In this document: in pieces, positions 24,871-28,439 of the stretch
Numbering within the stretch: position 1 is the first letter of the stretch
Layout: each line of letters starts with the position of its first letter
Source: Rhodospirillales bacterium
Lineage (GTDB): Bacteria > Pseudomonadota > Alphaproteobacteria > Rhodospirillales > Magnetovibrionaceae
Reading direction: 5' to 3'
Length of the DNA: 43,617 nt
NCBI GenBank assembly: GCA_024653965.1
Contig: JANLGW010000034.1
Coordinates: 1 to 43,617 of the forward strand
The notes under the pieces: generated by a model
What the model was told of the DNA's origin: nothing
The model's input: the letters and a program-made list of their open reading frames with translations, nothing else
The model's database searches: none
Position numbers and translations under genes: made by a program

Positions 24871-25414
24871 TCTTGGTATCCTCCAACTGCGCCCAGCGCT
24901 TGATCCACACGATGGCATAGGCAACCCCCGAAGCGATCGTCGTGGCGGCGGTCGCTAAAACCAGCGCATCCATGCCGCCGTCCAATTCAATACCATATCC
25001 CACATTCGCCATCACCGCCGCCGCAAATACGATTTGCACGGTGGTATTGACCTTGCTGATCATCAACGGCTGCATGGTAAGCGAATGCGTCATGGTTTCA
25101 AAGAGCAGCGCGCCGCCGACGATAAATACGTCGCGAAACACCACCAAGATCACCAGCCAGCTGGCGATGTACCCTTCGATGCCTAAAGTCACGAAAACCG
25201 ACACCAGCAAAGCCTTATCCGCCAAGGGGTCCAGGTATTTTCCCAATTCGGTTTCCATGTGGAAGCGCTTGGCGATAAAGCCGTCCAGGGCATCGGAAAT
25301 GCCCGCCGCCACGAACACCCAAAATGCCCACATCAGATAACCTTCCACGATCAACCACACGGCAAGCGGCACCGCAGCGATACGCAAAAGGGTGATGATG
25401 TTGGGCAGGTTCAT
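24860..25414 (-). CDS. CDP-alcohol phosphatidyltransferase (PgsA-like)
   Basis: This integral membrane enzyme exchanges CMP of CDP-diacylglycerol for an alcohol, probably glycerol 3-phosphate. The 184-residue protein begins MNLPNIITLLRI, as PgsA does, and contains the full signature DALDGFIAKR...GKYLDPLADK (D-x2-DG-x2-A-x-R-x8-G-x3-D-x3-D), which binds magnesium and CDP. Five to six hydrophobic helices follow. Its ATG overlaps the stop of the DUF2066 gene (ATGA). PgsA is the best guess, but other alcohol acceptors are possible. Confidence 0.9.
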   Translation of the reverse strand: MNLPNIITLLRIAAVPLAVWLIVEGYLMWAFWVFVAAGISDALDGFIAKRFHMETELGKYLDPLADKALLVSVFVTLGIEGYIASWLVILVVFRDVFIVGGALLFETMTHSLTMQPLMISKVNTTVQIVFAAAVMANVGYGIELDGGMDALVLATAATTIASGVAYAIVWIKRWAQLEDTKNEP

Positions 25415-26559
25415 CAGTTCTGAGTCTTTTGTCCGAGATACCAAATTCCGGCTTCTTCCCACAGCGCCAGATCCGCCTGATCCAACGACAGCGCCAACTG
25501 CTCGGCCCCCCCGATGAAGTGCAGATTGACCCGCACCTGATCGCGGCGCATCAGCACCAGCTCCATACGGCGAATGATGGCCACGCCGTTCAGACGGCTC
25601 TGCACGCTCACCCAATCTTTAAGACCGTTCACCCGCACCTGAATGGGCAGCACCTGGGCATGGCCCGCCTGGATCAAGTTGTCTTGTTTCCAATTATCTT
25701 CTATTTGCCCCTTCAAAGAGGTGGCCGTGCGGGCCAACAGTTGGGGGGCGTCTTCGCCCGGATCGGCCAAAAAGGTTTTCACCACGGTTTGCTCCTGCAG
25801 CGTAGAGCCGAACCGCGTCAGATACACTTCCAATTCGGGCAGCACGCCCGATACATCCATGCGCATAATGGCGTGCGCCACCACCACATCGCCTGCGTCA
25901 TAACGCTCGGCGAGTTCTTGCAGGCGTTGCATATCGCCTTCGATGGCCTGTTCCGCGCCAATAATGCGCACATCCTGCAAGTCGCCCAGCGCAAGGGTCA
26001 TCGGCACCAAATCACCGGCGCCGCCAACCCCCACCGTGTCCCATGCGGCACGCCACGGGTTCGTATCATCCCACAGCAAAAGCGCGTCCGCCGATTGATA
26101 AACAGGCAAAATCAGCACCGGCTTGGACACGGTCTCGGCATAGGGAATGCCGTTCGCATCCAAAAGCGCGCGCACCCCGGCGGCGCGGAAATGATAATTG
26201 AGCTTGGCGATGTAGCGCACGCGAGAGGCTTTTTCGCCGGTTACCGAAAAATCCACGACCAAAGCCGTGATCTCGGAGGCCGACACGACGGGCAGACGGT
26301 CATGATACGCCTGCAAGGTTAAGCGCCGCAAAAGCTGGTCGAATGCCTTGATTTCGCCCTCGGCCATGGCCTGAACGCGGGCGGCCTGGGCCGAATCGGC
26401 GGTAACGTCGACGGTCACGCCCCGAACCTCAAACTGAGTGGGTTGCGCGGCCTGAACAGGCCCGTTCAGCACGGCGCAAACCGCCAGCAGCGCAAGGCCT
26501 AAGGCCAGATGCACGCCTAACCGCGTCTTTACCTGCTTCAATGCCTCGTTCTCGGCCAT
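25414..26559 (-). CDS. DUF2066 domain secreted protein
   Basis: This 381-residue protein belongs, by its pattern of conserved hydrophobic blocks, to the DUF2066 family of envelope proteins of unknown function. The chosen start ATG 26559 gives a signal peptide (basic region, then HLALGLALLAVCAVL and a site after VQAA near residue 38). The family block FEVRGVTVDVTADSAQAARV follows, and later YIAKLNYHFRAAGVRALL and VLILPVYQS. The frame stays open to an ATG at 26664, but that start would overlap the ribosome site of purM and adds an unusual tail. Transcription is divergent from purM. Confidence 0.82.
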   Translation of the reverse strand: MAENEALKQVKTRLGVHLALGLALLAVCAVLNGPVQAAQPTQFEVRGVTVDVTADSAQAARVQAMAEGEIKAFDQLLRRLTLQAYHDRLPVVSASEITALVVDFSVTGEKASRVRYIAKLNYHFRAAGVRALLDANGIPYAETVSKPVLILPVYQSADALLLWDDTNPWRAAWDTVGVGGAGDLVPMTLALGDLQDVRIIGAEQAIEGDMQRLQELAERYDAGDVVVAHAIMRMDVSGVLPELEVYLTRFGSTLQEQTVVKTFLADPGEDAPQLLARTATSLKGQIEDNWKQDNLIQAGHAQVLPIQVRVNGLKDWVSVQSRLNGVAIIRRMELVLMRRDQVRVNLHFIGGAEQLALSLDQADLALWEEAGIWYLGQKTQN

Positions 26560-26650
26560 TGCAAAGCGTCCCGGAATGGTTATGTTCTCGTCTATTGCAC
26601 TGTTTTTACCACGTTGAGCCATCATTACCAGAGCGGCGTATAAATCCCGC

Positions 26651-26665
26651 AAGGAGGCAGCCATT
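26651..26665 (+). promoter_or_regulatory. Shine-Dalgarno and ATT initiation codon of purM
   Basis: AAGGAGG at 26651-26657 is the strongest ribosome site in the vicinity. The only plausible initiator at a suitable distance is ATT at 26663-26665. ATT is a known rare start codon (infC of E. coli). Confidence 0.7.
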
Positions 26666-27787
26666 TCCGGGGCAAGCTATAAAGACGCAGGCGTCGATAT
26701 TGACGCCGGAAATCAGCTGGTTGAGGCCATCAAACCCGCCGCCAAATCCACGGCGCGTCCGGGGGTGATGTCCGGCCTGGGCGGCTTTGGCGCCATGTTC
26801 GACTTAAAGGCCGCAGGTTTTACCGACCCCATCTTGGTGTCGGGCACGGATGGCGTCGGCACCAAGCTGAAGGTAGCCATTTCCACCGGTAAACACGACA
26901 CGGTGGGCATCGATCTGGTCGCCATGTGCGTCAACGATTTGGTGGTGCAAGGCGCGCAGCCTTTGTTTTTCTTAGATTATTACGCCATGGGCAAGCTGGA
27001 TGTGGATGCGGGCCGGCAGATCATCGAAGGCATCGCCGAAGGTTGCCGCCAGTCCAATTGCGCCCTAGTCGGCGGCGAAACGGCGGAAATGCCCGGCATG
27101 TACGGCGGCGGCGATTATGATCTGGCCGGATTTTGCGTCGGCGCGGTAGAACGCGACCAGGTGCTTACCGGCGACAAGGTCCAAGACGGCGACATCGTAT
27201 TGGGTCTGGCGTCCAGCGGCCTGCACTCCAACGGTTTTTCTTTGGTGCGCAAGGTGGTGGCGGATTCTGTCATTGGCGGCCCCGCCGACACCAAATTGCA
27301 AGCGGCGGTGCGCGACCACATCGTCGACAAGGCGCGTCTGGCCTACACCGCCCCGGCCCCCTTCGCGCCCGGCAAGACCCTGGGCGAGGCGTTGCTGATC
27401 CCCACCAAGATTTATGTCAAATCCTGCATGGCGGCGATCAAATCCGGCGGCATCCACGCGCTAAGCCACATCACCGGCGGCGGCGTGGAAAACATCCCAC
27501 GTGTACTGCCCGAAACCCTGGCCGCCGAAATCGACGCCACAGCCTGGAACACGCTGCCCGTATTCAAGTGGCTGCAAAAGGCCGGCAACATTCAGGCCAG
27601 CGAAATGGCGCGCACCTTCAACTGCGGCGTGGGCATGGTCGTCATCGTCGACAAATCCGCCGCCCAGAGCGTGCGCAAAACGTTCGAGACTAACGGCGAA
27701 ACCGTCTATGAGATCGGCCGCATCGTCAAACGCCCGGCGGGCAACGATGGCGTCATCTTGCGCAACGCCGACAAGGCATGGGGCTGA
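26663..27787 (+). CDS. purM: Phosphoribosylformylglycinamidine cyclo-ligase (AIR synthetase), probable ATT start
   Basis: PurM closes the imidazole ring in de novo purine synthesis, using ATP to convert FGAM to AIR. The conserved N-terminus [21 protein letters not shown] lies before the first in-frame GTG (26765), so that GTG cannot be the real start. The frame is open back to a TGA at 26615-26617 and contains no ATG, GTG, CTG or TTG before this block. AAGGAGG (26651-26657) is placed 5 bases before ATT at 26663, which would give an N-terminus of [12 protein letters not shown], normal for the family. From there the protein has 374 residues with the ATP-binding [11 protein letters not shown] and GGETAEMPG motifs. 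purN follows after 10 bases. Confidence 0.93.
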
Positions 27788-27797
27788 GGCTGAGGCG

Positions 27798-28439
27798 ATG
27801 AAGCTCGCGGTGCTGATCTCCGGGCGCGGTTCCAACTTGCAGGCGCTGATCGACGCCTGCGCCGCGAAGGACTTTCCCGCCGAAATCGTTTTAGTGCTGT
27901 CCAACAAAGCCGATGCCTTGGGCCTGGAACGCGCCCACAAAGCAGGCATTCTCACGCAGGTTCTCAATCACAAAGATTACACCGACCGCGACAGCTTCGA
28001 TCGAGCGATGACCGATGCCATCGTCGCCGCAGGGGCTGAATTCGTCTGTCTGGCGGGCTTCATGCGCCTGTTGTCGGACGATTTTGTGCGCACTTGGCAT
28101 GACAAATTGATCAACATCCACCCGTCGTTGCTGCCCGCCTACAAGGGCCTGCATGTGCATGAACGGGCGATCGAGGAAGGCGCGCGTTTTTCCGGCTGCA
28201 CCGTGCATTTTGTGCGCCCCGCCATGGATGAAGGCCCGATCATCGCGCAGGCCGTCGTGCCGGTGCTGCCCGACGACACGCCCGACACGTTAGCGGCGCG
28301 TATTTTGGAACAAGAACACGTCCTTTATCCCTTGGCCGTGCGCCTGATCGCCGAAGGGCGCGTGCGCGTCACCGCCGAAACGGTGCGCATCGACGACCAT
28401 CAGCCGCCCAAGGGGGCGCTGCTCAATCCGGCGTCTTAA
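27798..28439 (+). CDS. purN: Phosphoribosylglycinamide formyltransferase
   Basis: PurN transfers a formyl group from 10-formyl-tetrahydrofolate to GAR in purine synthesis. The 213-residue protein starts MKLAVLISGRGSNLQALID, the phosphate-binding strand-turn of the family. The folate and catalytic region shows GFMRLL, then INIHPSLLPAYKGLHVH with the catalytic Asn and His, and later GPIIAQ after the catalytic Asp in MDEGP. It lies 10 bases after purM, with a GAGG sequence between them, so the two are an operon. The N-terminal extension that an upstream frame could provide overlaps purM and is not credible. Confidence 0.96.
   Translation: MKLAVLISGRGSNLQALIDACAAKDFPAEIVLVLSNKADALGLERAHKAGILTQVLNHKDYTDRDSFDRAMTDAIVAAGAEFVCLAGFMRLLSDDFVRTWHDKLINIHPSLLPAYKGLHVHERAIEEGARFSGCTVHFVRPAMDEGPIIAQAVVPVLPDDTPDTLAARILEQEHVLYPLAVRLIAEGRVRVTAETVRIDDHQPPKGALLNPAS

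Follow-up and report, generated by a model that had tools for sequence, protein, structure and literature searches.

AUU, AUC and AUA start codons at purM in much of the Alphaproteobacteria, as indicated by comparison of start regions

Introduction

In 2002, Binns and Masters reportedly described an AUU start codon in the Escherichia coli gene pcnB. The classic case of such a start is infC, which is thought to be autoregulated through a start codon that is discriminated by IF3 (PMC13009471); here and below, statements credited to PMC13009471, PMC4611024, PMC5622118 and PMC11445065 reflect excerpts of those papers. IF3 discriminates AUU, AUC and AUA (together AUH), and not AUG, GUG or UUG (PMC4611024). 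In Staphylococcus aureus, ccpN (AUA), cvfC1 (AUU) and citZ (AUA) have non-canonical starts with an extended Shine-Dalgarno (SD) sequence, of which those of ccpN and cvfC1 are reported to be conserved and that of citZ occurs in one strain lineage. In S. aureus reporters, AUU and AUA starts gave about 10% of the AUG output in poor medium, and output from the ccpN start reached up to 30% in rich medium (PMC13009471). One reconstruction found that 1 of 61,358 ancestral AUG starts had switched to AUU (PMC5622118). Non-ATG starts, mainly GTG, in carbohydrate regulators of Enterobacteriaceae are a related published theme (PMC11445065).

We analysed the start of purM in a stretch of 43,617 nucleotides, referred to as the window, which comes from a draft genome of 153 contigs and 2.99 Mb. 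A sequence-only reading of this DNA had proposed that purM begins with ATT, and had regarded this as a rare single oddity. Instead, a start of this type proved to be conserved in purM across much of the Alphaproteobacteria, where AUU, AUC and AUA are each used.

Materials and Methods

The ranks used were the family Magnetovibrionaceae, the order Rhodospirillales and the class Alphaproteobacteria, all following GTDB. The family comparison covered 16 members including the window, in an ungapped alignment anchored on the start codon. For the order, 100 genomes were searched and 95 had a match, of which 90 were examined, leaving out G012 (partial gene), G022, G024 and G057 (short fragments), and G093 (distant match). 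Outside the order, 205 genomes of the class had a match, and the 144 examined came from the better-scoring of the matches listed. A third sample of named organisms consisted of the best 80 of at least 594 loci, with most named genera lying outside it; five of these loci repeat the start region of another genome, and the named loci include two identical pairs.

The label FORCED was given to a gene whose frame had no ATG, GTG or TTG from the in-frame stop (at most 46 codons away) to the conserved motif YKDAG. The label ATH-SD was given to a gene that had ATT, ATC or ATA within 25 codons, with an SD of -5 kcal/mol or stronger that beat every canonical candidate by 2 kcal/mol. SD strength thus enters the ATH-SD rule and not the FORCED rule. 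All other genes were called CANON or unclear, and the looser rule counts FORCED and ATH-SD together. Because some ATH-SD calls were wrong, a strict rule was added, which keeps only those ATH-SD calls whose ATH codon is at least four codons from YKDAG, with no canonical codon in between. For each control gene, the 30 best-scoring loci among 60 genomes (that of the window and relatives) were called by the looser rule. The PurM tree, a quick FastTree run on this gene alone, has 197 rows, some of which are repeats.

Results

In the window, purM, encoding phosphoribosylformylglycinamidine cyclo-ligase (AIR synthetase), occupies 26663..27787 on the forward strand (374 codons plus stop). Its frame matched TIGR00878 with 441.4 bits (cut-off 236), beginning at model position 2, and contains the Pfam domains AIRS (PF00586) and AIRS_C (PF02769). 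Upstream, the frame is closed by an in-frame TGA at 26615..26617 (+), and between this TGA and YKDAG (26678..26692, +), the anchor used for comparing starts, it holds no ATG, GTG or TTG; the first canonical in-frame codon is a GTG at 26765..26767 (+), codon 34 after ATT. The ATT itself lies at 26663..26665 (+), and the conserved N-terminal residues of PurM come directly after it. It is preceded by the SD sequence AAGGAGG at 26651..26657 (+), whose 5-nt spacer is proper and whose predicted duplex with the anti-SD is strong at -11.2 kcal/mol. The sequence-only reading had stated the ATT start, the lack of any standard start before GTG 26765, and the AAGGAGG five bases before ATT, and each of these statements held, the first on the strength of reading frame, SD, family alignment and the frame control described below. 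The start of purM at ATT 26663 is strongly supported by this comparison. For A. brasilense Sp7, where the codon is ATC, or another cultured member of the Rhodospirillales, the N-terminal peptide predicted from such a start is (M)STQSNNTSDAYK.

The gene downstream on the same strand is purN (27798..28439, +), with an ATG start. Divergently oriented is a DUF2066 gene at 25414..26559 (-), for which the start at 26559 is our choice; the longest mechanical ORF, 25414-26664 (-), overlaps the purM start, and the likely start is nearer 26559. This minus-strand ORF has an ATG at 26664 over the ATT, and an antisense start there was considered and rejected, since the C that it requires is not conserved: the triplet before ATT is gct in L012 and gtt in L013. 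Rfam returned no matches over the whole window at gathering thresholds. Folding of the start region and leader, in the window only, gave z values of 0.61 and 1.25, no more stable than shuffled sequences, and a regulatory structure is not indicated. Around PurM residues 200 to 220 (27260-27322 of the window), order-wide matches from other families were often split at query positions 200-220, pointing to an insert specific to the window's family.

Comparison with the upstream DNA of close relatives, as the sequence-only reading had proposed, showed ATT at the homologous codon in 10 of 15 other family members and ATG in the remaining 5 (ATT in 11 of 16 with the window counted). All three congeners in which purM was found have ATT, and a fourth congener gave no match. 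In family members, SGASY or a near variant directly follows the start codon. GGAGG is present before 8 of the 11 ATT genes and GGAGA or GGAGC before all 5 ATG genes, as if SD strength and start codon offset each other in this family. That a relative with ATG would mark the ATT as an error, as had been suggested, does not hold, for some relatives have ATG and others, congeners among them, ATT. The source being a draft of 153 contigs and five family members having ATG are the points that could favor a sequencing or assembly error of ATG; however, ATT is also carried by three congeners and by seven further family members, AUH occurs in many families, and ATC is present in four complete Azospirillum replicons. 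Because independent genomes carry ATT, we reject an error, to which we assign the smallest probability of all the readings weighed here.

The same 16 family members show where coding begins. Upstream of the SD, mean pairwise mismatch at codon positions 1, 2 and 3 was 0.72, 0.71 and 0.74, and over codons 5-33 it was 0.12, 0.08 and 0.52, with the switch to codon-like conservation falling at ATT. These values bear on whether the AUH codon could be a sense isoleucine within a longer protein begun further upstream by other means, given that isoleucine is encoded by just these three codons, ATT, ATC and ATA. Against this, the codons upstream lack protein-level conservation, the homologous codon is ATG in five family members, an in-frame stop comes as close as two codons before ATT in L265 (TGA) and four codons before the start in L112 (TAG), and the known case infC has the same three codons in the order. 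We reject this reading, which appears highly improbable.

Translation could alternatively begin at another canonical codon, either an upstream ATG where one is present or, in the window, the internal GTG at 26765. An in-frame ATG does occur 4-7 codons upstream of the ATH codon in L014, L018, L019, L024 and L041, and part of these ATGs overlap the SD of the ATH codon. In L019, L024 and L041 the ATG lies four codons upstream of ATT and overlaps the SD (ATGGAGGAAGCCATT), and translation in these species could begin at the ATG or at both codons. The internal GTG, however, would cost the protein a conserved N-terminal region that is under strong codon-level constraint, and just 6 of 16 family members have GTG at its position, the others having GTA, GTT or GTC. 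Moreover, an AUH codon with no AUG, GUG or UUG available was found in the window and in 44 of 314 purM genes, which have no canonical codon from the stop to YKDAG; these FORCED genes comprise 28 ATT, 10 ATC and 6 ATA, and 43 of the 44 start regions are distinct. A start at the internal GTG is rejected on this evidence, and a canonical start elsewhere is, as a whole, very unlikely. At least two near-cognate candidates occur in some purM genes: adjacent ATA and ATT in L248, ATA and ATT in L275, and ATT and CTG in L279.

The other reading frames served as a control. Among the 44 FORCED genes, an ATH codon with an SD of -5 kcal/mol or stronger was present in frame in 43, more than expected by chance, compared to 4 and 5 in the other two frames of the same stretches. 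The median predicted SD was -7.4 kcal/mol at the FORCED AUH starts, compared to -5.2 kcal/mol at the best canonical candidates. By the looser rule, ATH starts were called in 30 of 30 infC loci, in none of 30 each for purN, purH and purD, and in 1 of 30 for fmt; this single fmt call (L476) is spurious, with a sense ATC at the anchor. FORCED genes made up 14 of the 30 infC loci and none of 30 for each of the other four genes. Thus, the looser rule picks up the infC starts and seldom makes a call in these ordinary genes. The infC loci from the order (30 examined of 57 found) had 18 ATA, 11 ATC and 1 ATT, the 14 FORCED ones being those without a canonical alternative. In several of these infC loci (L320-L349), an in-frame ATG occurs further downstream, which gene callers may take as the start.

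Under the strict rule, AUH starts were assigned to purM in 57 of 90 genomes of the order, in 52 of the 144 from the rest of the class, and in 10 of the 80 named loci. Counted in families, the total is 54 of 107, made up of 20 of 28 within the order and 34 of 79 outside it. The looser rule gave 62 of 90, 58 of 144 and 16 of 80, in 60 of 107 families. These looser calls are made up of 22 FORCED and 40 ATH-SD genes in the order, beside 28 CANON; 18 FORCED and 40 ATH-SD in the rest of the class, beside 83 CANON and 3 unclear; and 4 FORCED and 12 ATH-SD among the named loci, beside 64 CANON. The strict rule removed 17 looser calls with an intervening canonical codon. Five of them (L176, L213, L216, L237 and L253) are plainly ATG genes, with an ATG downstream of the called ATH and before the motif, and some others, e.g. 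Kiloniella majae (L129), are likely true ATA starts with a downstream sense TTG.

Within the named sample, i.e. the best 80 of at least 594 loci, 12 of 14 loci of NCBI Rhodospirillales had AUH starts under the looser rule (8 of 14 under the strict one), Azospirillum, Roseospira, Terasakiella and Pacificispira among them, with Thalassospira being CANON. None of 24 Hyphomicrobiales, 21 Rhodobacterales or 4 Halomonadaceae loci in this sample had an AUH start, and the one looser call among 4 Sphingomonadales was false (0 of 4 strict). Azospirillum purM starts with ATC and has no canonical codon upstream of the motif in four complete replicons, including that of A. brasilense Sp7. These genes (L431-L434) sit on a replicon of 1.75-2.05 Mb deposited as a plasmid, a core metabolic gene on a chromid-like replicon; the deposited records show no annotated genes in the purM stretch. 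Outside the class, 20 genomes of the phylum, hand-picked at one per family, were all CANON by the looser rule, and E. coli purM, in one strain, starts with GTG. The non-canonical start of purM is thus conserved in relatives, though not universal.

On the PurM tree, changes between ATH and canonical numbered 31, compared to a shuffled-label mean of 64 (29 compared to 58 under the strict rule), and by these calls the AUH trait follows descent, yet with many gains or losses. Under the strict rule, the AUH rows show 14 changes of codon identity, with a shuffled mean of 16.9 and a lowest shuffled value of 14, so ATT, ATC and ATA readily take one another's place. The adherence to descent would also be expected if the start were real and had no regulatory role, being an old alphaproteobacterial substitution that was tolerated owing to the strong SD and inherited since. 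The 5 family members of 16 that carry ATG at the homologous codon fit such neutral inheritance, as does the lack of a conserved leader structure in the Rfam and folding results, which cover the window only. In opposition to it, AUH has been kept in 54 of 107 families by the strict count even though one substitution would turn ATT into ATG, T, C or A can stand in third position with a number of identity changes not far below the shuffled mean, and the same codon set is used by infC, whose weak start has a known role. We consider neutral inheritance unlikely, although it deserves far more weight than the other alternatives above.

Discussion

The explanation we consider probable is that purM has a maintained, weak start that is discriminated by IF3, is offset by a strong SD, and limits PurM synthesis. 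Initiator fMet-tRNA would start purM at AUU 26663, recruited by the strong and well-placed SD, which would hold up the weak start. Since the third base of AUU, AUC and AUA is not G and IF3 discriminates against these codons, we expect initiation to be weaker and IF3-sensitive: several-fold weaker than at AUG, and rising when IF3 is short relative to 30S subunits. That the start has been kept across much of the Alphaproteobacteria suggests a limit on PurM synthesis. The position of the start, its conservation, the use of three AUH codons and the strong SD are all read directly from the compared genomes; lower output, IF3 sensitivity and adaptive value would follow by analogy with the known systems. 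In the same way, the suggestion of the sequence-only reading that the start is rate-limiting and IF3-dependent is plausible, given infC, pcnB and S. aureus ccpN.

What argues most strongly for a maintained function is that the start persists in many families while the three IF3-discriminated codons exchange for one another. What argues most strongly against it is the ATG in 5 of 16 family members together with the canonical starts seen at the Hyphomicrobiales and Rhodobacterales loci, because of which the weak start is dispensable; the CANON calls in 28 of 90 genomes of the order and 83 of 144 others of the class also count against our explanation.

The weak start may tie PurM synthesis to the state of the initiation machinery. 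We raise only tentatively, and with some doubt, the broader idea that, in much of the Alphaproteobacteria, purM and infC belong to a small set of genes whose translation is set by IF3 discrimination, tying de novo purine synthesis directly to the initiation machinery, whose state would in that case be the ratio of IF3 to 30S subunits or the supply of fMet-tRNA. 10-Formyl-THF is common to purine synthesis and the initiator tRNA, and a link of the purM start to formyl donors is speculation on our part.

Starts rejected by IF3 are among the rarest in bacteria, and it is unexpected for a core metabolic gene to keep one across dozens of families. Gene callers restricted to ATG, GTG and TTG probably mis-annotate purM genes with AUH starts. 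Through purM one could also test directly whether IF3 discrimination controls metabolism, beyond the gene of IF3 itself, and A. brasilense Sp7, whose purM has ATC and lacks a canonical alternative, is a tractable organism in which to do so. Our literature search, which covered few subscription papers, listed no recognizable report of an AUU, AUC or AUA start in purM, and a prior description is possible.

Among the known systems, infC resembles purM in its same three start codons, its SD and its broad conservation. The two differ in that purM encodes a metabolic enzyme and not the discriminating factor, and in that AUH starts of purM were seen here in part of one class. As the product of purM is not the discriminating factor, any effect of IF3 would act in trans, with no feedback loop. 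pcnB is alike in being a chromosomal gene limited by an AUU start, and differs in the gene concerned. ccpN, cvfC1 and citZ of S. aureus share with purM a non-canonical start and an extended SD; in the excerpts of PMC13009471 they are described in staphylococci, whereas the purM start is conserved over many families of a class. E. coli purM is an orthologue that also starts with a codon other than AUG, but its GUG ends in G and is not discriminated by IF3 according to the excerpts of PMC4611024. Likewise, the GTG starts of the Enterobacteriaceae regulators are not IF3-discriminated, unlike the AUH starts of purM. The kind of start described here is therefore already known from infC, pcnB, ccpN and cvfC1, and what is unusual is its occurrence in a metabolic gene and its conservation over many families of a class.
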